From: a virus
Length of the DNA stretch: 25,275 nt
Direction: 5' to 3' (one strand)
IMG/VR virus record: IMGVR_UViG_3300009419_001319
Coordinates: 1-25,275 of that record
The position numbers were made by a program, and so were the translations under genes. The notes beneath the pieces were generated by a model that saw only the letters and a program-made list of their open reading frames with translations, made no database searches and was not told where the DNA came from. This document shows, piece after piece, positions 4,648 to 16,919 of the stretch. Numbering within the stretch: position 1 is the stretch's first letter; each line of letters opens with the position of its first letter.

Positions 4648-5577
4648 ATGATGAAACAAAAAAATCACATTACTTGGAAAAACGAAAGCGAAGAGCTTTA
4701 TGTTCTCAATCTGGATCAGAATTTTGATCCTTTTGAAAATTATGAAGGCGGAATTTTCAAAGTTAAGTTTTCCAAAGGACTTTTTCCAGCAGGAGAACCA
4801 AATTTTAAAATCGAATCATCGTTATATAATGGTAATATGGTGATCACGCACCGTATTAATTCGGTGTCGGATTTGATCGATATCGTAATAGCCAATGATG
4901 CTGTTCGCCGTATGGGGATCAAAAATATTGAATTGTTCATACCCTATTTCCCAGCAGCAAGACAAGATAGAATTTGTAATACAGGAGAGGCTTTTACTTT
5001 GAAAATCTTCGCGGATATGATCAACTCTTGTGGATTTGATAAGGTATCTATTCTGTGTCCGCATAGTGATGTTACACCAGCGTTGATCAATAATGTTCAT
5101 ATTTTAGATGAACGTGAATGGGTGTTGCAAAGTGTTTTGGAAATGTCGAATGGTAAGGATATTAATATCGTATGTCCTGATGCTGGTGCTGGTAAAAGAG
5201 TTCAGAAAATCATTGAGTATCTATCCAATCAAGATAGAACTCATCTTTATCATCTCGTCCGATGTGAAAAAATTCGAGACGTTAAAGACGGTTCTTTGAA
5301 AGAATTTTACGTTGGTGAAGGACTTGTTGAGGGCGCACCGACATTGATAATCGATGATATCAATTGTAAAGGTGGGACATTCTTGGGTCTTGCTGAAAAA
5401 TTGAAAGAGAAAAATTGTGGTTCTTTGGGATTGTTTACCACACACAGTGACTGCCAAGAAGGGGTTGAAAATGTTTCACGTAAATTTGACTTCGTTTTCA
5501 CGACCAATAGTAAGCAAAATTGGTCAGATATCTTAAAATTCGCTGGTTTGACAACTTTTAAAATCAAATACCAATGA
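4648..5577 (+). CDS. prs: Ribose-phosphate pyrophosphokinase-like enzyme (Prs, or NARP1 Adps)
   Basis: The 309-residue protein has the Prs fold: PYFPAARQDR (99-108), matching the PYFGYARQDR signature of PRPP synthetases; CPDAGAGKR (176-184), matching ..PD.G...R; KIRD (208-211) in the flexible-loop region; and the pyrophosphate/ribose loop IIDDINCKGGT (234-244), where cellular enzymes have VDD..DTGGT. It would make PRPP from ribose 5-phosphate and ATP. In the phage NARP1 pathway a Prs homologue (Adps) instead adds pyrophosphate to ADP-ribose; the altered loop (NCK for the usual D-T/A) leaves this open. The gene has a double ATG start (4648 and 4651) and overlaps the next gene by ATGA. Confidence 0.9.
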   Translation: MMKQKNHITWKNESEELYVLNLDQNFDPFENYEGGIFKVKFSKGLFPAGEPNFKIESSLYNGNMVITHRINSVSDLIDIVIANDAVRRMGIKNIELFIPYFPAARQDRICNTGEAFTLKIFADMINSCGFDKVSILCPHSDVTPALINNVHILDEREWVLQSVLEMSNGKDINIVCPDAGAGKRVQKIIEYLSNQDRTHLYHLVRCEKIRDVKDGSLKEFYVGEGLVEGAPTLIIDDINCKGGTFLGLAEKLKEKNCGSLGLFTTHSDCQEGVENVSRKFDFVFTTNSKQNWSDILKFAGLTTFKIKYQ

Positions 5578-5984
5578 GATATAATCATCCTTTTACAAAA
5601 TCTGAAAATTGTGCAGAGAGATTATTTCAACAATGGAAAGAACATAACTCTTTAATTATTGCAGTAGACTTTGATGACACAGTTTGCCCTTATAAAGACG
5701 ATTATGATACCTCAGAAGTTATCAATATCTTGAAAAGATGTAATGAAAATAATTTCAAATTGATTGTTTTCACTGCTTCGGAGAAAGAAAGATTTGAAAA
5801 AATTGAACAATTTTTTGAAGACAATCTCATTAAAATTCAAGGAATTAATAAAAATTTATTAGACAAAATTGGAAACGATGGTAAGATTTACTATAATCTT
5901 TTACTTTGTGATAGAGCGGGTTTAGGACAAGCTCTAGAAACTTTAGAAATACTTTTAGAAAAAATAAACAAAAATACAAAATAA
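5574..5984 (+). CDS. HAD-superfamily hydrolase-like protein
   Basis: The 136-residue protein carries HAD motif I as VDFDDTVCPY (31-40), with Asp32 the expected nucleophile and Asp34 the acid/base. Motif II is probably FTAS (66-69). LLLCDRAGLGQA (109-120) has one Asp at the motif IV place, where many relatives have two; there is little room for a cap domain. It would be a small phosphatase, substrate unknown. Being translationally coupled (ATGA) to the Prs-like gene and two bases before the NAMPT-like gene, it probably works on a sugar phosphate or nucleotide of that pathway. I recall similar small HAD proteins with the DRAGL ending beside NadV genes in other phages, without being able to check. 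Confidence 0.78.
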   Translation: MRYNHPFTKSENCAERLFQQWKEHNSLIIAVDFDDTVCPYKDDYDTSEVINILKRCNENNFKLIVFTASEKERFEKIEQFFEDNLIKIQGINKNLLDKIGNDGKIYYNLLLCDRAGLGQALETLEILLEKINKNTK

Positions 5985-5986
5985 AT

Positions 5987-7579
5987 ATGAAAAAGAAACC
6001 ACATCTCAGCTTCGACGGATACAAATGTGATCATCGTCGTCAATATCCAGAAAATAGTCTATTAGTCTTTTCTAATATGACTGCCCGTGGCACTCGCGTT
6101 AAAGGATTGAATAAAGTTATTTTCTTCTCATTACAGGCATTTATCAAGGAACATCTAATCCAAGAATGGGGTGATGAATTCTTTGCCAAGGATGTTGAAG
6201 AAGTCGTTGCAGATTACAATCGTCGTCTTAAAAATTATCTAGGACCAAATGGTATTGGTGAGCAACATATTCGTGATCTTCATGCTCTTGGATATCTCCC
6301 TCTTCAAATTTGGGCGTTGCCAGAAGGTTCTGCCGTTGATCTTAGAGTCCCCATGTTTGTCATGTGGAATACTGACGATAAATTTTTCTGGCTAACGAAT
6401 GCTATTGAAACCATTATCAGTGCTAATCTTTGGGGTGGTTGTACCAGTGCTACCACTGCTGTAATGTATCGTCAAATTCTCAATGAATGGGCTAATAAGA
6501 CTAACCCTGAAATGATCGATTTTGTCCCATGGCAAGGACACGACTTTAGTTTCCGTGGACACTTTGGATTTGATGCTGCTATTAAAAGCGGTGCTGCTCA
6601 TTTGCTCGCATTCACTGGCACAGATACAGTTCCTGCTATTGATTATCTCGAAGAGTATTATAATGCAGATTCTGATAAGGAACTTGTTGGCGGTAGCGTC
6701 TCAGCTACGGAACACAGTGTGATGTGTATGGGTGGAGTTGAAGATGAGATTGGTACATTCGATCGTATTATTAGCAAACTCTATCCAAGTGGTATTGTCT
6801 CGATTGTGTCTGATACTTGGGACTTCTGGAACGTTGTCAATCCTGATGGCGGCATTGCTGCTCAACTGAAGGATAAGATTATGGCTCGTGATGGCAAGGT
6901 TGTGATTCGTCCTGACTCTGGTGATCCAGTTAAGATTGTGACTGGCTATTTGCCTGATGAATATGAAGTTCGCGATGGAAAATATTACATCTTTGATATT
7001 GTATCGCATAAAAATGGCTCGCCAACACCTTACACCAAAGAAATCACTGAGCTTGAAGTCAAGGGTATGGTTGTGTGCCTTTGGGAAATCTTCGGTGGTA
7101 CCGAAACCAGCACTGGATATAAGCAGCTTGACAGCCACATCGGAGCAATCTACGGAGACTCCATTACGCTTGAACGTGCTACTCAAATTTGTGAACGTCT
7201 TGCCACTAAGGGATTTGCTTCTACCAACATTGTATATGGTATCGGTAGCTTCACCTATCAAGGTGCTGTAACTCCTGATGCTATTATTACTAGAGATACT
7301 CACGGGTTTGCTGTCAAATCCACCTATGGAGAAGTTCTAGTTAATGGTGAACGTCGAGGTATTGAAATTTTCAAAGACCCTAAGACTGATGATGGACTCA
7401 AAAAATCCGCTAAAGGTCTGATTGCGGTTTATGAAACCGAAGATGGATTTACTATGAAAGACCAAGCAACTTGGGATGATGTCAAGAACTGTGCTTTCGT
7501 GAACGTCTTCTCTGATGGAAAGCTTATGAAGGATTGGACTCTTGCTGAAATCCGTGAACGAGTTGCAAAGAATTTTTGA
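5987..7579 (+). CDS. nadV: Nicotinamide phosphoribosyltransferase-like enzyme (NadV/NAMPT, or NARP1 Namat)
   Basis: The 530-residue protein is a close NAMPT-family member, a little longer than the human enzyme (491). FRGHFGFDAA (189-198) covers the substrate-stacking region; FTGTDTVPAI (209-218) holds the Asp that selects nicotinamide; ATEHSVM (240-246) holds His243, equivalent to the autophosphorylated His of NAMPT; VIRPDSGDP (306-314) and SDTWDFWNVV (275-284) are family signatures. It would join nicotinamide to PRPP giving NMN, or to ADP-ribose pyrophosphate giving NAD+ directly if it is the NARP1 type. The Prs-like gene next door supplies the co-substrate. No NMN adenylyltransferase is visible in the window. 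The start is two bases after the upstream stop. Confidence 0.95.
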   Translation: MKKKPHLSFDGYKCDHRRQYPENSLLVFSNMTARGTRVKGLNKVIFFSLQAFIKEHLIQEWGDEFFAKDVEEVVADYNRRLKNYLGPNGIGEQHIRDLHALGYLPLQIWALPEGSAVDLRVPMFVMWNTDDKFFWLTNAIETIISANLWGGCTSATTAVMYRQILNEWANKTNPEMIDFVPWQGHDFSFRGHFGFDAAIKSGAAHLLAFTGTDTVPAIDYLEEYYNADSDKELVGGSVSATEHSVMCMGGVEDEIGTFDRIISKLYPSGIVSIVSDTWDFWNVVNPDGGIAAQLKDKIMARDGKVVIRPDSGDPVKIVTGYLPDEYEVRDGKYYIFDIVSHKNGSPTPYTKEITELEVKGMVVCLWEIFGGTETSTGYKQLDSHIGAIYGDSITLERATQICERLATKGFASTNIVYGIGSFTYQGAVTPDAIITRDTHGFAVKSTYGEVLVNGERRGIEIFKDPKTDDGLKKSAKGLIAVYETEDGFTMKDQATWDDVKNCAFVNVFSDGKLMKDWTLAEIRERVAKNF

Positions 7580-8426: not shown

Positions 8427-9103
8427 CGATTGTAACGTGTAATTATAATACACCTGATCTTATTATAAATCTTAAAAGATCTATAGAAAAACATTGTCCA
8501 GTATTACCGAAAATACTGATAATAGATACTGGTGAACATCCAATGATGGATTTTCAAAACGTTAAAATGTTGAATACTTCACATGGAAATGCTGTCAATG
8601 CAGCGTTTGATTTAGTGAAAACAAAATACGTGTTACTCGTTGATTCCGATGTTTTATTTTTGAAAGATATAAAAAAACCATATGAGAAATTCAAAGAAGG
8701 TGGATTTGTATTGATGGGAGAAGTTGTCGGTGATCGTGGTGGGAAGTCATTATACCCAAGAGTCAATCCGTGGTTTTGTTTTATAGATTTAGAACAATTA
8801 AAAGAGCATGACATTAATTTTTATGATCATCATAGAACCAAAGAAATAAAATCCGAAAGAATATATGATATTGGATCTACGATGTTCGAAGATGTTATCA
8901 AAGCGGATTTAACAGTTGCAAATGCTAAAATGGAGAATAAATATTTCAAACATTACGAAGGTATGTCTTGGAGAGTTCAGAAATATAACCCTAACAATGG
9001 AGACACTGATATTGATATCGGAGGGACTCATGATAGTGTTCAACTCTACAAATTGGGTTTACAAGTGAGAGAACGATATAACAAAGATGTTGCTGATTTA
9101 TGA
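8414..9103 (+). CDS. GT2-like glycosyltransferase
   Basis: The 229-residue protein begins LTIVTCNYNTPDLI, a classic GT2 first strand, continues with ILIIDTG (34-40) and GNAVNAAFD (58-66), and has the metal-binding DSD in LLVDSDVLFL (74-83). DIGSTMFEDV (about 154-163) is a plausible acceptor-side segment. Donor and acceptor cannot be assigned. It starts inside the previous gene and shares ATGA with the next one, so the three are probably translated together. Confidence 0.85.
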   Translation: MDDLTIVTCNYNTPDLIINLKRSIEKHCPVLPKILIIDTGEHPMMDFQNVKMLNTSHGNAVNAAFDLVKTKYVLLVDSDVLFLKDIKKPYEKFKEGGFVLMGEVVGDRGGKSLYPRVNPWFCFIDLEQLKEHDINFYDHHRTKEIKSERIYDIGSTMFEDVIKADLTVANAKMENKYFKHYEGMSWRVQKYNPNNGDTDIDIGGTHDSVQLYKLGLQVRERYNKDVADL

Positions 9104-9717
9104 AAAAATTAAACGAATATTTTGATAAAATTTATTGTATAAATTTGGATAGACGACCAGATAGATGGGAGAAATGCTCCAATCTCTTTGAAAGAGATGG
9201 TATAATTGTTGACAGATTTTCTGCTATCGATAAAAATAATATTAAAAATGAATCGAAAATAGCAAATGGACCTCTAGCTTGCTTATCTAGCCATTGGAAT
9301 ATTTTGAATAAAGCTCTAAAAGAAGGATATGAAAAAATACTAATATTTGAAGATGATATATCATTTGATGAAGGATTAAATTCTTTTTTCGAGAATAACT
9401 TAGTGGATGTTCCCGATGATTGGAAATTTTTATACTTGGGTGGTAATCATTTGAATGGTTTGACACATGTTAAAAATAATGTATTTAGAATGGTGTCATC
9501 TCTGACAACACATGCATATGCTATCAAATGTGATATTATACCTCAAATACTACACTTGATCGCTGAAGCGAATGCACCTGTAGATGTTTATTATGCAGCT
9601 TTTCATAGAGCATTTCCATCTTACGTTTTGAAAAACGGTGAAAAGTCCGTAGCATGGCAGGATGATGATTATAGTGATGTTGATGATTCTAAATGTGATT
9701 ATACTTGGTTGAAGTAA
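9100..9717 (+). CDS. GT25-family glycosyltransferase (LPS-type)
   Basis: The 205-residue protein has the three GT25 landmarks: YCINLDRRPDRW (12-23), GPLACLSSHWNIL (57-69) and ILIFEDD (80-86), as in LOS/LPS galactosyltransferases of the LgtB/LpsA type and in collagen galactosyltransferases. HAYAIKCDIIPQIL (about 137-150) is the usual following motif, and the protein ends with an Asp-rich WQDDDYSDVDDSKCDY tail. GT25 enzymes use UDP-sugars and EDD binds the metal. It is somewhat short for the family but looks complete. ATGA overlap with the upstream gene. Confidence 0.88.
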   Translation: MKKLNEYFDKIYCINLDRRPDRWEKCSNLFERDGIIVDRFSAIDKNNIKNESKIANGPLACLSSHWNILNKALKEGYEKILIFEDDISFDEGLNSFFENNLVDVPDDWKFLYLGGNHLNGLTHVKNNVFRMVSSLTTHAYAIKCDIIPQILHLIAEANAPVDVYYAAFHRAFPSYVLKNGEKSVAWQDDDYSDVDDSKCDYTWLK

Positions 9718-9718
9718 T

Positions 9719-10420
9719 ATGGCGGATAAACCACAATTATCATTATGTGTTCCTTGCTACGAAATGAGTGGGGTTGGGGCGAAGTATTTGAGCGAGTCAT
9801 TATCAATTATAAGAACACAGGAATGCGATCTATCGAATGTTGAAATTATCGTTTCTGACCATTCTCTTGATAATGAAATTGAGAAGTGTTGTGATAATTT
9901 TAAAGATTTGAATATTAAATATTTTAAAAATTCTTATGGGCGTGGATCGATGTCGGCAAATTTAAATAGCTGCATCAAACATAGCTCTGGAAAATATATA
10001 AAACCGCTGTTTCAAGATGATCTTTTTTATTACTCAAAATCATTGAAACATATTTTGAGTAATTTGAGTGATCCTTGGTATGCTCACGAATATACACATT
10101 TAAATGGTGATTTAAATACATACTACAATCAAAGAACTCCGTATAGTAATAATAATTTTATCGATGGTGTTAATTCATTAGGACCACCAAGTGTAATATA
10201 TTTTATCAATGATGATAATTTCTTCGATGAGAAACTTTCATATATGATGGATACAGAATTCTATCACAGAATGATCACAAAATATGGACAACCGACTATT
10301 TTGAAAAGTGGCATTCCTTTGGGAGTAGTAAGAACTTGGGCTGGTCAAACAACTCAAGCAACCACTAGTAATATGATTGACAAGGAACATATTTACATTA
10401 AATCGAAATATAATAAATGA
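9719..10420 (+). CDS. GT2-family glycosyltransferase
   Basis: The 233-residue protein starts LSLCVPCYEMSG (7-18), a GT2 opening strand. EIIVSDHS (42-49) holds the nucleotide-binding Asp, SMSANLNSCI (77-86) the helix contacting the donor, and KPLFQDDLFY (95-104) the DxD-like metal site. MDTEFYHRM (about 180-190) fits the acceptor-side (E/D)D.E.. motif. The donor is not assignable. It begins one base after the upstream stop and ends with an ATGA overlap into the GT11-like gene. Confidence 0.86.
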   Translation: MADKPQLSLCVPCYEMSGVGAKYLSESLSIIRTQECDLSNVEIIVSDHSLDNEIEKCCDNFKDLNIKYFKNSYGRGSMSANLNSCIKHSSGKYIKPLFQDDLFYYSKSLKHILSNLSDPWYAHEYTHLNGDLNTYYNQRTPYSNNNFIDGVNSLGPPSVIYFINDDNFFDEKLSYMMDTEFYHRMITKYGQPTILKSGIPLGVVRTWAGQTTQATTSNMIDKEHIYIKSKYNK

Positions 10421-11328
10421 TTACAACAAATTTAACAGGAAATTTAGGGAATCACATGTGGCAATATGCCGTATGTAGAACTATTGCAGAACATAAAGGT
10501 TATGAGTGGGGTATCAATTCTTCCCCCACTCATGATTATTTCAATGGGGATAATCAGATGAAATTCATGAATATTGATTTCGGTAAACCAGTTGAGGGTA
10601 TAACCAAAGAGTTTCACGAGAGATGGTTAAATATTCATCACGTTGATCAAGTCAATATTACCGTCTTGGATAAGCGTCTTTACGATATTGAAGATAATAC
10701 TATAATGTTGGGTGATAATGGTGCGTTTGGGGGATTATTCCAATCAGAAGATTATATTATAGATAGAAAGTTTGATGTCGAACGATGGTTCTCGATTAAT
10801 GATGATTATAGGAAAAAATACGACGATCAATTATTGGATATGGGTATTTCTTTGGATGATGACTTATGTGTAATTAATTTTAGAGGGGGGGAATATACAG
10901 GACTATATAATGTTTTGTTGAGGAGAGAATATTGGAGGGATTCAATAAATCATATGTTGAAAAACAATTCAAATATGAAATTCTTGGTTATTACTGATGA
11001 TATAAATCTTAGTAAAACATTCATGCCGTTTGATATCCCAACTGTTCATATTGATGTTGGATTTGATTTTTATGTAGTGAATCAAGCTAAATGGTTGATT
11101 ATATCCAATTCATCTTTTGGATGGTGGGCAGCGTGGTTGAATACAAAATGTAAAGAGATCATAGCTCCAAAATATTGGGCTAGACACAATGTAAGCAATG
11201 GTTACTGGGCAACTGGAGATGTATATTCTAGATTTTTTAATTATATTGATCGTGATGGAAATATGTTTAGTTATGATGAGTGTAGAGAAGAAGCTCAACA
11301 ATTTTACAAACAACACAATATATTATGA
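10417..11328 (+). CDS. Divergent GT11-like (fucosyltransferase-type) glycosyltransferase
   Basis: The 303-residue protein has the GT-B layout of GT11 alpha-1,2-fucosyltransferases: GNLGNHMWQYA (8-18) for the usual GGLGNQLFQYA, and SNSSFGWWAAW (230-240) for SNSSFSWWAAW. The central motif, normally HxRRxDY, is here NFRGGEY (154-160), keeping one Arg but lacking the second and the Asp. The donor may still be GDP-fucose or a related GDP-sugar, but the change makes this less certain. It is distinct from the canonical GT11 gene at 16185. ATGA overlaps join it to both neighbours. Confidence 0.8.
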   Translation: MITTNLTGNLGNHMWQYAVCRTIAEHKGYEWGINSSPTHDYFNGDNQMKFMNIDFGKPVEGITKEFHERWLNIHHVDQVNITVLDKRLYDIEDNTIMLGDNGAFGGLFQSEDYIIDRKFDVERWFSINDDYRKKYDDQLLDMGISLDDDLCVINFRGGEYTGLYNVLLRREYWRDSINHMLKNNSNMKFLVITDDINLSKTFMPFDIPTVHIDVGFDFYVVNQAKWLIISNSSFGWWAAWLNTKCKEIIAPKYWARHNVSNGYWATGDVYSRFFNYIDRDGNMFSYDECREEAQQFYKQHNIL

Positions 11329-12191
11329 GAAAAATCTACGACTGCTTTATATTTTTTAATGAATTAGATTTATTAGAACTTCGCTTCAATATACTAGATG
11401 AATATGTCGATTATTTCGTGTTGTGTGAAGCAGATGTTACCCATAGTGGTCTTCCAAAATCTTATATTTTTGAAGATAATAAAGAGAGATTTTCCAAATT
11501 TCTCCATAAAATAATTCACATTAAAATTGATGATATTCCAACAGATTTCACAAACCTGCCAACAATAGATACTCCCAAATCATTCGATGAAGAATGTTTA
11601 AAGGATATATACAAATTTATAAATGACACTGAATTATTTATACCTGAAATACACCCCCATTATGGGCGGGATTTCTTTCAAAAAGAATCTGTAAGAAGGG
11701 GATTAGTGAATTGTTCAGACGATGATATAATCATATTGTCCGATTGTGATGAGATCCCGAACCCTGAAATTTTATCAAAAGTTGATAAGTTTATTGATAT
11801 GGAGCCGTTCTTCACCCTCCAGCAAACTACTTATTATTACTATATAAATTTATTGAAAGAATACAATTGGAGAGGTTCTCGGATCAGTAGATTTAAAAAT
11901 ATTAAACACTATTCATTTAATGAACTACGAGCGCAAAAAAATTGTGAGCTATCAAATGGCGGGTGGCACTTTAGTTTTATGGGTGATCAAGATCACGTTA
12001 AAAATAAAATAAAGGCTTATTCACACCAAGAACTCAATAATCAAGATATTCTCGATAAAATTAATTTCAATATTGAGAATAATATCGATCCGTTTTCAAG
12101 AAGTAAACTTGAATTAGTCGCAGTAGATGAATCTTATCCAAAATATTTGTTAGATAATATTGAAAAATATCACCACATGATTAAACAATAA
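11325..12191 (+). CDS. GT17-family glycosyltransferase
   Basis: The 288-residue protein matches GT17 (the family of MGAT3, beta-1,4-N-acetylglucosaminyltransferase, and many bacterial and viral members). It begins IYDCFIFFNELDLLELR (4-20), continues with CEADVTHSG (34-42) and the metal-binding SDCDEIPNP (139-147), and later GGWHFSFMG (about 216-224). GT17 proteins use UDP-GlcNAc in eukaryotes; the bacterial and phage donors are unknown. Length is normal. It is coupled by ATGA to the GT11-like gene upstream. Confidence 0.88.
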   Translation: MRKIYDCFIFFNELDLLELRFNILDEYVDYFVLCEADVTHSGLPKSYIFEDNKERFSKFLHKIIHIKIDDIPTDFTNLPTIDTPKSFDEECLKDIYKFINDTELFIPEIHPHYGRDFFQKESVRRGLVNCSDDDIIILSDCDEIPNPEILSKVDKFIDMEPFFTLQQTTYYYYINLLKEYNWRGSRISRFKNIKHYSFNELRAQKNCELSNGGWHFSFMGDQDHVKNKIKAYSHQELNNQDILDKINFNIENNIDPFSRSKLELVAVDESYPKYLLDNIEKYHHMIKQ

Positions 12192-12194
12192 AAT

Positions 12195-12839
12195 ATGATC
12201 AATCTTCCAAATGTTACATTAATTGCCATGACATCTGTGAAAATTCCACAGACTATAAAAGCTTTGCAGTATAGTATGCGTGGTATAAATTTTGGGGCTG
12301 TTAAAATTGTTTCTGACATTATACCCGAAAATCTTCCTGATGAAATCACTCATGAATTCACTGAAAAAATGTCAAATATAGACGAGTGGAATCATGATAT
12401 AATTTATAAATTAGGGAAACATGTGAATACAGAATTTTTAATTTTGATTCATGATGATGGGTTTATAATTAATCCTGAAATGTGGAGAGATGAATTTTTA
12501 AAATATGATTACATCGGCGCACCATGGCCGCTTCCTAATGATGATTTCTCATTCAGAGACATAAATGGTGAGTTAATACGAGTCGGGAATAGTGTTTCTT
12601 TGAGAAGTAAAAGATTGACAGATTTAGCATCAGAATTAAAATTAGAGTGGAAACCTTTCCATGGATTTACTAACGAAGATGGATTTATATGTGTCAATTA
12701 TCGTCACGTATACAAAGAGCATGGGATGAAATTTGCTGATATTGATGTTGCTAAATATTTTTCACATGAAACTCAATTACCAGAAACTATAGGGATTAAA
12801 CCACTTGCTTTTCATGGTAAAAAAGGAATTTTTGATTAA
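12195..12839 (+). CDS. DUF5672-type putative glycosyltransferase
   Basis: The 214-residue protein fits the DUF5672 pattern seen in polysaccharide clusters: FLILIHDDGFIINP (81-94), carrying a likely metal-binding HDD; YDYIGAPWP (104-112); VGNSVSLRSKRL (130-141); and EDGFICVNY (161-169). The order is that of a short GT-A fold with the acceptor/catalytic Glu-Asp near the end. Activity has seldom been tested for this family. It lies three bases after the GT17 gene. Confidence 0.8.
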   Translation: MINLPNVTLIAMTSVKIPQTIKALQYSMRGINFGAVKIVSDIIPENLPDEITHEFTEKMSNIDEWNHDIIYKLGKHVNTEFLILIHDDGFIINPEMWRDEFLKYDYIGAPWPLPNDDFSFRDINGELIRVGNSVSLRSKRLTDLASELKLEWKPFHGFTNEDGFICVNYRHVYKEHGMKFADIDVAKYFSHETQLPETIGIKPLAFHGKKGIFD

Positions 12840-12840
12840 T

Positions 12841-13488
12841 ATGAACAAAGAATTAGTGATATCGTTATATGATAGAGATATAAGTTGGATCAGTAAAATA
12901 AATCCAGATGTATCTGTTAAAATATATAGAAAAGGGAATTTGATAAGTCATTCAAATGAGATATTTTTGGAAAACAATATAGGTAGAGATGTTCACACGT
13001 TTTTTTACCACATAGTATCCCAATATGAAAATTTAGCAGATTATACATTTTTTTCACAAGATTATCCATTCGATCATATTGAAAATTATACAGATATTAT
13101 AAATGGAGACATAGAATTTTGGAATGAGAAAGCTAGTCAACATTTCGAAGAATATTGGGGGTATCATTGGAATAGCATAGGAACAATGTGGGCTTTACAG
13201 CCATCTAATCAATTTGGTGGAAAGATATTAACATGTGATAAAACAGGAAGTGGAATGTGGGTAAGACCTCTTAATTTAGAGGATTCTTGGAAATTGTTTT
13301 TCGAATGTAAATGTCCTGAATTTTTTGAATTCACTCCAGGCGCACATTTTGGAATTTCCAAAAATCAAATAAAATTAAGACCCTTGACATTTTACAAGAA
13401 GGTATTAGAATTCTTGGAAAATGTGGAAGATGCTCCTTATGTAATTGAGAGATTCGAACCTTATATTTTTAATTCAACTATAAAATAA
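12841..13488 (+). CDS. DUF3431-like protein of the glycan cluster
   Basis: The 215-residue protein has the DUF3431 signature NIGRDVHTFFYHI (46-58) followed by YTFFSQDYPFDH (68-79), and later FTPGAHFGIS (about 163-172), where family members have Y..GAqF.V. The family is found in fungi, plants and sugar clusters and is thought to be transferase-like, but its reaction is unknown. I chose ATG 12841 over a frame that opens at 12805 inside the previous gene, because the shorter start sits one base after the upstream stop and begins directly with the first strand. Confidence 0.78.
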   Translation: MNKELVISLYDRDISWISKINPDVSVKIYRKGNLISHSNEIFLENNIGRDVHTFFYHIVSQYENLADYTFFSQDYPFDHIENYTDIINGDIEFWNEKASQHFEEYWGYHWNSIGTMWALQPSNQFGGKILTCDKTGSGMWVRPLNLEDSWKLFFECKCPEFFEFTPGAHFGISKNQIKLRPLTFYKKVLEFLENVEDAPYVIERFEPYIFNSTIK

Positions 13489-13490
13489 TT

Positions 13491-14777
13491 ATGATCTTAA
13501 AAGAAGATATTAAAACACTGGTAGGCAATCATGTATCGCCTTATATCTATAATGCTAAAGAATTTAAACATGGAAAAACTCCAATATATTATTCTGGTCC
13601 ATACTGGGATAATCGAGAAACTGAAGCAGCATTAGATTCATTTTTAAATGGTAAGTGGATCACTGCTGGAGAAAAGGTTCATAAATTTGAAAGTCAATTT
13701 TCTAAAAGGTTTAATACCAAATATGGGCATATGGTGAATTCTGGAAGTTCTGCGAATCTTGTTTTAATTTCAGCATTGAAACGACGATTTAATTGGCAAG
13801 ACGGAGATGAAGTGATTGTATCTCCTGTTGGATTCGCCACTACCGTTTCTGTTATTTATCAAAATAAATTAACTCCTGTATTTGTTGATATTGAATGGGA
13901 TACTTTAAACTTCGATCTAGAACAAATAGAATCCAAAATAACAAATAAAACAAAAGCTATTTTTGTTTCTCCAGTTTTAGGAAATCCGCCAGATATGGAT
14001 AAGTTAATCGCTATTAGCGAAAAACATGGGATTCTTTTGGTAGGTGATAATTGCGATAGTTTGGGAAGTAAGTGGGATGGGAAATATCTCAATGAATACT
14101 ATGTAGCGTATTCCAATTCTTTTTATCCTGCTCATCACATCTCGACAGGAGAGGGTGGTATGGTGTGTTCAAACGACATTGAACTTAAAAAATTATTCGT
14201 GAGTTTGAGTTGGTGGGGTAGAGATTGTTACTGTGTGGGGGCTGCAAATTTGCTCCCTTGTGGAACATGTGGTAACAGATTTGATAATTGGCTGGAGAAT
14301 TTTGACGGTGTTATAGATCATAAATATGTTTTTTCTGAAATGGGGTATAATTTAAAACCTTTAGATTTACAAGGTGCTATTGGTTTGGTTCAGCTTGAAA
14401 AATTGGATGAAATGGAATCCAATAGAAGAAATTCTAATCGTAAAATATCAGAAATTTTCAATAAACACATCTCCAATATTAGAAGCCCGAAAGTTTTAGA
14501 AAAAGCAGATCCTTGTTGGTTCGGGACACCATTCATCTGCGAAGATATTGGTGTTAAGCATAGAATCGTCAAGCATTTAGAAGATAATAAAATTCAAACA
14601 AGAAATTATTTTGCTGGAAATATTCTCTTACATCCTGGATATAAAGACTTGGATGATTATAGAAAATATCCTGAAGCTAACAAAGTGTTGAATTCTGTAT
14701 TTTTTGTCGGGGCTGCACCGCATTACACGCAGCCAGTATTTGATTATATCGAAGACGTAATTTCAAAATTCCAATGA
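13491..14777 (+). CDS. rfbH: RfbH/E1-type CDP-4-keto-6-deoxyglucose 3-dehydratase
   Basis: The 428-residue protein is a DegT/AHBA-family enzyme: NSGSSAN (83-89) and DNCDSLGS (186-193) hold PMP/PLP. At the usual Schiff-base lysine it has His215 in SFYPAHH (210-216), the hallmark of 3-dehydratases rather than aminotransferases. Cysteines follow C188-X57-C246-X1-C248, then C257 and C260; from memory the [2Fe-2S] motif of Yersinia E1 is C-X57-C-X1-C-X7-C. The ending DHKYVFSEMGYNLKP (303-317 region shortened here) is also RfbH-like. It would remove the 3-hydroxyl of CDP-4-keto-6-deoxyglucose, on the way to abequose, paratose, tyvelose or ascarylose. The reductase partner, cytidylyltransferase and 4,6-dehydratase are not in the window, so host enzymes would be needed. 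ATGA overlap with the SDR. Confidence 0.9.
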   Translation: MILKEDIKTLVGNHVSPYIYNAKEFKHGKTPIYYSGPYWDNRETEAALDSFLNGKWITAGEKVHKFESQFSKRFNTKYGHMVNSGSSANLVLISALKRRFNWQDGDEVIVSPVGFATTVSVIYQNKLTPVFVDIEWDTLNFDLEQIESKITNKTKAIFVSPVLGNPPDMDKLIAISEKHGILLVGDNCDSLGSKWDGKYLNEYYVAYSNSFYPAHHISTGEGGMVCSNDIELKKLFVSLSWWGRDCYCVGAANLLPCGTCGNRFDNWLENFDGVIDHKYVFSEMGYNLKPLDLQGAIGLVQLEKLDEMESNRRNSNRKISEIFNKHISNIRSPKVLEKADPCWFGTPFICEDIGVKHRIVKHLEDNKIQTRNYFAGNILLHPGYKDLDDYRKYPEANKVLNSVFFVGAAPHYTQPVFDYIEDVISKFQ

Positions 14778-15589
14778 TATCTGTATTTGGTGGTAGTGGT
14801 TTTATAGGACAGGCTTTTTGTGATAAAAAGAAGTCTGATGTAGCAATTATAGATAGAAATTCTTTCACTCCTATTAGTGATAAAGTTTTGTATTTGATAA
14901 GCACTGTTGATAATTACAACGTTTTAACGGATTCTAAGTTAGATATAAATACAAATCTGATTCATCTTATGAACGTATTGGATGAATGTAGAAAAATAAA
15001 AGGTATGGAATTTACCTTTATAAGTTCTTGGTTTGTATATGGGGACACCACCCTTCCAGCTAGAGAGGATTCGATTTGCAATCCAAGAGGATTTTATTCT
15101 ATAACTAAATATGCGGCTGAATTGTTAATTCATTCTTACTGTAAAACATTCAATATTGATTATAAAATAATCAGATTGGGTAATGTGGTTGGAAATTCTG
15201 ATTCCAAAATTTCAAAAAAGAAAAACGCTCTTCAATATTTGATAAATGAGATGAGGGAAAACAACCCAATCAATCTTTATAATAATGGTAATTTTTATAG
15301 AGATTATATTCACATAGATGATGTCGTGTCTGGTATTGAATTTTTAATGGACAAAGGGCAAAATGGTGAAACGTATAACTTATCAGGTGGAAAGCCAATT
15401 TTATTCAGAGATATCATAGATTATGCATATCAAGCACTGGATTCTTCCAGCAAAATAGGAAACATGGAACCATCGGATTTCCATAAAATAGTACAAGTTG
15501 AATCAATGTATTTGGATACATCGAAAATAAATGATATGGGATTTCACACAAAAAATAATATAAATGAAATTATAAATAAATTATTATGA
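14774..15589 (+). CDS. Sugar-nucleotide SDR (epimerase/reductase), perhaps paratose/abequose synthase-like
   Basis: The 271-residue protein is an extended short-chain dehydrogenase: NAD(P) loop GGSGFIG (6-12), catalytic SSWFVYG around residues 88-94, YSITK (Tyr108, Lys112), IIRLGNVVG (about 132-140) and YRDYIHIDDVV (about 176-186), the last typical of sugar-nucleotide enzymes. Next to an RfbH-type dehydratase and joined to it by ATGA, it would naturally be the 4-keto reductase that finishes CDP-abequose or CDP-paratose; a 4,6-dehydratase or epimerase role cannot be excluded. It is slightly short, with a brief substrate-binding end. Confidence 0.82.
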   Translation: MISVFGGSGFIGQAFCDKKKSDVAIIDRNSFTPISDKVLYLISTVDNYNVLTDSKLDINTNLIHLMNVLDECRKIKGMEFTFISSWFVYGDTTLPAREDSICNPRGFYSITKYAAELLIHSYCKTFNIDYKIIRLGNVVGNSDSKISKKKNALQYLINEMRENNPINLYNNGNFYRDYIHIDDVVSGIEFLMDKGQNGETYNLSGGKPILFRDIIDYAYQALDSSSKIGNMEPSDFHKIVQVESMYLDTSKINDMGFHTKNNINEIINKLL

Positions 15590-16182
15590 AAACATTGAAA
15601 CAAATTTTAAATGAATATAAACTGAATATTTTCGATGAAGAAAATATGAGAATTAATCCTAATTACGGGACAGATAAAGGTCATCCAAAATCTTATATAG
15701 ATAAATTTTATGAAGATTTCTTTAAAAAATTTAGAGACAATAATAACACTATAGTTGAAATTGGAGTTAGAAGCGGAGCATCTTTAAAATTATGGAGGGA
15801 ATATTTTTCAGAAGATAGTAAAATATATGGTTTAGATAATCTATATGATAAAAATGAACATTCTGTGCCAATAAATAATGAATGGATTTCTGGGAAAAAT
15901 GTTGAATATATAGTAGGAGACGCATACACCGAGGAAATAGCAAATAAATTTGAAAATATAACGATTCTTATCGATGATGGTCCCCATTCTCCAGATTCTC
16001 ATGTCAGATTGTTAGAATTATATTCTGATAAAATAGAAAAGGGAGGTGTCATTATAATAGAAGATGTTGGTTATGATCCGAACGGATTACTCAACATTTT
16101 GAAAAAAACTCCAAATGCAGAATTTTCATATTTCGATTTCGGAACATACTACGATAACAAAATTATATTATTTCAATTTTAA
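15586..16182 (+). CDS. Class I SAM-dependent methyltransferase (macrocin O-methyltransferase-like)
   Basis: The 198-residue protein has a Rossmann methyltransferase core: YGTDKG (28-32 region), VEIGVRSGASLKLW (57-70) as SAM motif I, YGLD (81-84) as motif II, GDA (111-113) and IDDGPHS (129-135), the metal/acceptor segment of the macrocin/demethylmacrocin O-methyltransferase and cephalosporin-hydroxylase-like group. It probably O-methylates a sugar of the glycan made by this cluster, a common capping step. ATGA overlap with the SDR supports a shared pathway. The substrate is not readable from sequence. Confidence 0.82.
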   Translation: MKTLKQILNEYKLNIFDEENMRINPNYGTDKGHPKSYIDKFYEDFFKKFRDNNNTIVEIGVRSGASLKLWREYFSEDSKIYGLDNLYDKNEHSVPINNEWISGKNVEYIVGDAYTEEIANKFENITILIDDGPHSPDSHVRLLELYSDKIEKGGVIIIEDVGYDPNGLLNILKKTPNAEFSYFDFGTYYDNKIILFQF

Positions 16183-16184
16183 AT

Positions 16185-16919
16185 ATGAATAGTTGCTACG
16201 TAAATGTTATTGGTGGCGTGGGCAATCAGTTATTTCAAATAGCTGCTGGCTATGCTTATGCCAAGAAACATGGTAAGAAATTGATCGTCAACCCTTATAA
16301 TTGGTTTGCTGGTCAAGGAACCAATCCTTTAGTGTATAAGGATACAATTTTCAAGAATTTTGAATATGGTAATTGTTTCACTAGAGATGTGATTGGTATC
16401 CATGAAAAAAGATTTAATTATGATGAGTTACCATTCCATGTAGGGTCTGTATCATTGAATGGGTATTTTCAATCTTTGAAATATTTCGAAGAATATAAAG
16501 ATGAATTTATTTCTTTATTGAACTTGCCAGAAGTTGATTCAGAAATTGATATAGCATTTCATATTAGAAGAGGGGATTATCTCAAACATGCTACAATTCA
16601 TCATGTTTGTCATACAGAATACTTTGAAAAGTTCTTTGAAAAATACAAAGGGCAAAATATTAAAGTATTCACTGATGATCCAAATCATGTAATCAACGAA
16701 TTTCCGAATTATAAATTTGAAATATTACATTCCGATTCTGATATTAAAGATCTTGCATACATGTCAAATTGTGATATCGTAGTGGGGAGCAACTCTACCT
16801 TTTCTTGGTGGGCAGCTTTGATTGGTGATAAGACATCTTATTTCCCTTCCAAGTGGTTTAGCGATGGTGGAGAAGCAACTGATATTTACTACGATAAAAT
16901 GATTAAATGTGATGTTTGA
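16185..16919 (+). CDS. GT11 alpha-1,2-fucosyltransferase family protein
   Basis: The 244-residue protein keeps all GT11 motifs: GGVGNQLFQIA (10-20), HIRRGDYL (126-133), where the Arg pair binds the GDP-sugar, VFTDDP (161-166) and SNSTFSWWAAL (202-212). It would transfer fucose from GDP-L-fucose to galactose or a related sugar in alpha-1,2 linkage. No GDP-fucose synthesis gene is visible here, so the donor must come from the host or another part of the genome. It is slightly shorter than bacterial FutC-type enzymes. It starts two bases after the methyltransferase and overlaps the DNA methyltransferase by eight. Confidence 0.9.
   Translation: MNSCYVNVIGGVGNQLFQIAAGYAYAKKHGKKLIVNPYNWFAGQGTNPLVYKDTIFKNFEYGNCFTRDVIGIHEKRFNYDELPFHVGSVSLNGYFQSLKYFEEYKDEFISLLNLPEVDSEIDIAFHIRRGDYLKHATIHHVCHTEYFEKFFEKYKGQNIKVFTDDPNHVINEFPNYKFEILHSDSDIKDLAYMSNCDIVVGSNSTFSWWAALIGDKTSYFPSKWFSDGGEATDIYYDKMIKCDV

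Follow-up and report, generated by a model that had tools for sequence, protein, structure and literature searches.

The window, that is, the whole stretch of 25,275 bases that was analysed, is a virus fragment that carries portal, tail sheath stabilizer and PhoH genes of the T4-like type, and its portal protein is at most 30% identical to those of named phages among the matches listed. Pfam matches place a pair of overlapping genes, which encode an RfbH-type enzyme and a short-chain dehydrogenase/reductase (SDR), amid a glycosyltransferase island. Both open reading frames (13491-14777 and 14774-15589) are genuine. The features are as follows:

9100..12839, + strand: upstream part of the glycan island, with GT25, GT2, GT11, GT17 and DUF5672 proteins (Pfam)
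12805..13488, + strand: DUF3431 protein, candidate glycosyltransferase of the island, adjoining RfbH upstream (PF11913, 49 bits)
13491..14777, + strand: RfbH/E1-type NDP-4-keto-6-deoxyhexose 3-dehydratase of the X11 (phage-type) clade, 428 aa (profile, E1 match, residues and tree)
14052..14054, + strand: codon of C188, first Cys of the conserved set (invariant in relatives)
14133..14135, + strand: codon of H215, catalytic His replacing the aminotransferase Lys (alignment with E1 3bcx; His in 88/88)
14226..14234, + strand: codons of C246-X-C248 (invariant in relatives)
14268..14270, + strand: codon of C260, invariant fourth Cys at X11 (Cys in 88/88; opposite the TC..RF cysteine of E1)
14774..15589, + strand: extended SDR (Epimerase family), probable NDP-4-keto-3,6-dideoxyhexose 4-ketoreductase, 271 aa (PF01370, 111 bits)
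15586..16919, + strand: downstream part of the glycan island, with a methyltransferase (PF13578) and GT11 (Pfam)

A homologue of the DUF3431 gene is present at 44 related loci. Elsewhere in the window (4648-7579), what looks by eye like an NAD salvage set is formed by three consecutive ORFs resembling ribose-phosphate pyrophosphokinase, a phosphatase and nicotinamide phosphoribosyltransferase.

We compared the product of ORF 13491-14777, which belongs to the DegT/DnrJ/EryC1 class by Pfam and fold, with family profiles and solved structures. The top NCBIfam match was RfbH (NF011936), although its score of 374.5 bits lies under the curated cut-off of 423; with the same model, the X11 relatives tested scored 354-364 (441 for L093) and four classical members 656-706. 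The top solved-structure match over the entire length was E1 of Yersinia pseudotuberculosis (3bcx/3bb8; E = 6e-79 by sequence), which was also the best match by fold. In the full-length alignment, H215 pairs with the histidine in the SFYPAHHI segment of E1, where the H220K mutant (3bb8) has PAKH, and the residue is His in 88/88 relatives and the catalytic Lys in none. A previous reading made from the sequence alone (hereafter the sequence-only reading) had placed the catalytic histidine at this position and had called the enzyme a true 3-dehydratase, not a lysine-dependent aminotransferase. Both points are borne out by the best structure and profile matches, by the catalytic residue being His and by a phylogeny in which the enzyme groups with RfbH. 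The plain aminotransferase reading was dropped on the strength of that residue and of the tree placement. The best reading of the enzyme is a ferredoxin-dependent NDP-4-keto-6-deoxyhexose 3-dehydratase, of which the cofactor and substrate are presumptive.

The cysteines C188-X57-C246-X1-C248 are likewise found where the sequence-only reading had put them, and the full pattern is C188-X57-C246-X1-C248-X11-C260. H215, C188, C246, C248 and C260 show no variation in 88 relatives. The same reading had taken the Cys at X8 as the next member of the set; C257 does sit at X8, but it is replaceable (Asn in five relatives, which are marine-phage members, and a gap in one) and was ruled out as the fourth Fe-S ligand, whereas the conserved residue is C260 at X11 (88/88). 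Because C260 is invariant while C257 varies, C260 is most likely the fourth ligand of the putative cluster. The classical RfbH/E1 motif (C-X57-C-X1-C-X7-C) is absent from the window enzyme, which has the same cysteines at another spacing, and its loop carries a four-residue insertion relative to the X7 of E1. In the AlphaFold2 model, the overall pLDDT is 84 and residues 242-269 and 274-286, the Cys loop, are below 50.

A search of IMG/VR returned 553 relatives, the best 80 of which are 74-99% identical to the window enzyme, and the observation is therefore no chance event. The enzyme was also found in the named phages S-H68, S-B43, S-B05, RB11-B and RN05-S (about 56%), in the 642-kb LR756502 (66%) and in the single-cell virus AG-345-D19 (53%). 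Among the matches listed from a cellular scan of 84,980 species genomes, five contigs showed at least 48% identity (Bacteriovoracales (two), Nitrosomonadaceae, Prochlorococcus and one Nitrospirales fragment), and the others were at about 41% or less. Every high-identity sequence has the X11 spacing; among 75 others kept, X7 occurs in 66 and X9, X10 or X12 in nine. A branch supported at 100/98 in a PMSF tree separates the X11 set from the other sequences. The X11 spacing marks a well-supported, mostly viral clade separate from classical X7 RfbH, and the gene pair, akin to O-antigen enzymes of bacteria, is carried by T4-like phages that are common in aquatic settings. A 2.6-kb contig labelled Salmonella phage (OR851175.1, L089) bears a classical X7 rfbH and is probably host DNA contamination. 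In Prochlorococcus SAG AG-363-O16 (L094), the SDR-RfbH pair lies in what by eye resembles a chromosomal glycan island of this marine cyanobacterium, a possible source of the gene for cyanophages.

The start of the SDR lies within the RfbH stop (a 4-bp ATGA overlap). Its GxxGxxG motif and Y108-K112 are invariant and its SSWFVYG segment is conserved; the Asp-Glu pair of RmlB (TDEVYG) was looked for in the window SDR and is absent, with SSWFVYG in its place and the Tyr-Lys pair kept. A reductase or epimerase is therefore more likely than a 4,6-dehydratase, and the protein is probably a 4-ketoreductase, as judged from these residues. Its model has a pLDDT of 91.6, with GalE and RMD as the nearest folds; profile and fold searches gave generic GalE/RmlB/RMD-like matches only and no close characterised 4-ketoreductase family. 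To compare neighbourhoods, we assigned flanking ORFs by their best BLAST match to reference proteins at 90 X11 loci and 75 other RfbH loci. The window-type SDR was present at 48/90 X11 loci and 1/75 others, and adjoined RfbH at 41/80 viral and 4/5 cellular X11 loci. At each of the 49 viral loci where both flanks extend for 5 kb or more, the gene directly downstream of RfbH encodes an SDR, which upholds the coupling proposed in the sequence-only reading; this SDR is of the window type at 27 loci and RmlD-like at 22, the two never occurring together, and BLASTP detected no significant similarity between the two types. That the two reductases exclude each other suggests that the stereochemistry of the sugar is under selection. 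A 200-aa protein was also observed after or near RfbH at several loci (L064:1453-2076, L071:2605-3228, L074:5265-5888 and L070:11196-11849).

The nucleotide of the substrate cannot be read from the Fe-S/His signature, because SpnQ has both features and yet uses a dTDP-sugar (PMC8987622). Where genes for earlier steps occur in the X11 clade, they are mostly dTDP-sugar genes. The claim that earlier steps are absent is correct for the 25-kb fragment, but some relatives encode RmlA, RmlB or RmlC. For example, in the marine virus AG-345-D19, RmlB (362 bits; cut-off 365.1), SDR and RfbH are contiguous, with touching or overlapping ends, and in S-H68 and RN05-S, RmlB, RmlC and SDR are consecutive and RfbH lies 4.7 kb on (cyanophage scores: RmlB 381.7 bits in S-H68; RmlC 221, cut-off 155.75). 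In Bacteriovoracales L091 and L095, RmlA (388 bits in L091) and RmlB (441) are divergent from an adjoining SDR-RfbH pair; these MAGs, which may be incomplete, gave no RmlC match, and rhamnose is therefore not the obvious use of their dTDP-sugar. Within 8 kb of RfbH, RmlA or RmlB was found at 0/80 viral loci. The close relative G003 has a lone RmlB-like gene (339 bits, L182:3616-4623) far from its RfbH island, and G001, the RfbH of which is 95% identical to that of the window, has an RmlA-like gene (242.6 bits) beside an uncharacterised SDR, away from RfbH. This last pair (L085:5155-6802, at 141.2-142.8 kb) stands isolated among structural and clamp-loader genes. Taken together, the gene context indicates that the nucleotide is likely dTDP.

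The sequence-only reading had proposed instead a CDP-4-keto-6-deoxyglucose 3-dehydratase supplied from CDP-sugars of the host, the SDR yielding CDP-abequose or CDP-paratose. That the best solved homologue is a CDP-using E1 and the family profile is RfbH would fit this proposal; however, RfbF was found near RfbH at 0/90 X11 loci and 43/75 others (Fisher P about 2e-19, a descriptive contrast only, as the loci are not independent and phages lack most pathway genes anyway). The phage records searched gave no match to RfbG or RfbF above the cut-off. No dedicated E3 reductase (AscD/RfbI) was found either, with no Fer2 domain across 18 viral contigs and nothing beyond a small ferredoxin in the cyanophages. 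Cellular genomes point both ways. In L091, a group of genes for RfbF, RfbG, a cupin and an RmlD-like SDR lies about 19 kb from the X11 RfbH, and no second RfbH, and thus no classical one, was detected at E = 1e-30 or better, which favours a CDP-sugar; on the other hand, its sister MAG G023 and the Prochlorococcus genome G022 have the X11 RfbH, with RfbF and RfbG not found. The Nitrosomonadaceae genome holds both kinds, an X11 RfbH with its SDR and, elsewhere, a classical RfbH reserved for the CDP cluster with RfbG-RfbF, and the cassette SDR shares just 26% identity, over a partial length, with the SDR next to that classical RfbH. The cyanophages have a CTP_transf-like gene that could also speak for CDP; in S-H68 this small nucleotidyltransferase-like protein (L082:8546-9040) lies beside RmlB, is annotated as glycerol-3-phosphate cytidylyltransferase and matches rfaE_dom_II best (56 bits), with a good fit to no family. 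The CDP-sugar claim is thus not supported by the context, which favours dTDP, and we regard it as unlikely.

A GDP route, in which the enzyme would act in the manner of ColD on GDP-4-keto-6-deoxymannose from a phage or host Gmd and the SDR would yield a colitose-like sugar, is suggested by the viral flanks, 10/80 of which have Gmd and 13/80 Fcl (at several loci two or three genes before RfbH), and by G012, in which a second RfbH directly follows Gmd-Fcl. However, Gmd and Fcl suffice for GDP-fucose, a donor for the fucosyltransferase-like GT11 proteins encoded in the same islands; Gmd is missing from most loci, and the flanks of X11 loci in cells and named phages gave no match to it; and the enzyme has Fe-S cysteines that are absent from ColD and groups with RfbH in the tree. 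These points make the GDP route improbable. The second RfbH of G012 and its counterpart in G006 (453 and 459 bits, above the cut-off; L183:2189-16330 and L184:2360-18252) are accompanied by an RmlB-like gene that is nearer to them than to the X11 RfbH. Also nearby in G012 are genes for an acetolactate-synthase-like TPP enzyme, acetaldehyde dehydrogenase and 4-hydroxy-2-oxovalerate aldolase, a set that we take to recall branched-sugar synthesis such as that of yersiniose. Mainly C4 transamination, giving a 4-amino sugar, would be compatible with the DegT/DnrJ/EryC1 fold and with phages lacking an E3 reductase, since SpnQ transaminates when its reductase is absent (PMC8987622). Nevertheless, His stands for Lys in all relatives, the Fe-S cysteines, needless for an aminotransferase, are invariant, and the constant ketoreductase-like partner suits a keto product, so that this activity seems very unlikely.

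We therefore favour, with a probability of roughly 0.58, the reading that the overlapping pair is a 3,6-dideoxyhexose cassette of a PMP/[2Fe-2S] 3-dehydratase and a 4-ketoreductase, with dTDP-4-keto-6-deoxyglucose as the most likely donor. In this family, the 4-keto sugar is bound to PMP as a Schiff base, the His takes a proton, the C3 hydroxyl departs, and two electrons delivered through [2Fe-2S] complete the reduction (PMC8987622). Likewise, the RfbH-type enzyme would bind an NDP-4-keto-6-deoxyhexose via PMP, and His215, in place of the aminotransferase Lys, would drive removal of the hydroxyl at C3. Electrons from ferredoxin- or flavodoxin-type reductases of the host, donors that we infer from the lack of a Fer2 domain in the 18 viral contigs, would be relayed by a [2Fe-2S] cluster bound by C188/C246/C248/C260, and the paired SDR would then reduce the C4 ketone. 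The dTDP-4-keto-6-deoxyglucose would come from host RmlA/RmlB, or from a phage RmlB in some relatives, as a branch off the rhamnose pathway, and the resulting dTDP-3,6-dideoxyhexose may serve the adjoining glycosyltransferases, which would attach the sugar to host LPS or to a glycan of the phage. For the cyanophages with RmlC, an ascarylose-type L-sugar is conceivable.

Compared with known systems, the window enzyme shares with E1/AscC/DdhC/RfbH (Yersinia 3bcx) the full-length fold and sequence, the catalytic His and the C-X57-C-X1-C start. However, it differs in its X11 rather than X7 spacing, its identity of about 35-40%, its separate clade and its RfbH score under the cut-off, and X11 loci have a different SDR and lack RfbF/RfbG/E3 partners in the flanks and records searched. 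E1 requires E3, whereas SpnQ, a dTDP-4-keto-2,6-dideoxyglucose 3-dehydratase, accepts ferredoxin or flavodoxin reductases (PMC8987622). As described in the literature, SpnQ resembles the proposed enzyme in PMP, His, [2Fe-2S], general reductases and a dTDP substrate, but its substrate, from antibiotic pathways, lacks the 2-OH; in L162, the single Streptomyces homologue examined, the spacing is X7. ColD (GDP-4-keto-6-deoxymannose 3-dehydratase, 2gms) has the same fold and catalytic His, but it uses a GDP-sugar, lacks the Fe-S cysteines, is about 30% identical and is distant in the tree. E1 and ColD serve 3,6-dideoxyhexose routes as CDP- and GDP-sugar enzymes, respectively (PMC8987622).

The genes rfbH, ascC and ddhC have been listed among viral carbohydrate auxiliary metabolic genes (AMGs) and assigned to CDP-sugars by orthology, and the accessible portions of these surveys do not describe the clade, the SDR pairing or the dTDP context (PMC10653327, PMC11295528). 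The gene of S-H68 is annotated as CDP-4-dehydro-6-deoxy-D-glucose 3-dehydratase. A literature search, with subscription papers mostly outside its reach, returned no account of RfbH with X11 spacing as a clade, of its pairing with SDRs or of an assignment to dTDP; viral rfbH as an auxiliary gene is already known, and these three points look new. A connection with DNA hypermodification through phage S-B43 was considered and rejected, the terms sugar, dehydratase and aminotransferase being absent from PMC12783734.

More tentatively, and at slightly less than even odds, T4-like phages and their relatives, as one widespread clade, may apply the [2Fe-2S]/PMP 3-dehydratase to dTDP-4-keto-6-deoxyglucose and so run a previously unrecorded dTDP-3,6-dideoxyhexose pathway off host rhamnose synthesis, in which two interchangeable ketoreductases would set C4 and the sugar would coat the host or the virion. 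To our knowledge, all characterised 3,6-dideoxyhexose routes begin from CDP- or GDP-sugars. Viral rfbH genes are filed by default under the CDP pathway, while the surrounding genes point to dTDP-sugars; if hundreds of viral copies indeed use dTDP-sugars, many AMG annotations would be wrong. The common rhamnose precursor would then give phages a route to dideoxy sugars of the O-antigen type, and receptor masking and superinfection would probably be affected.
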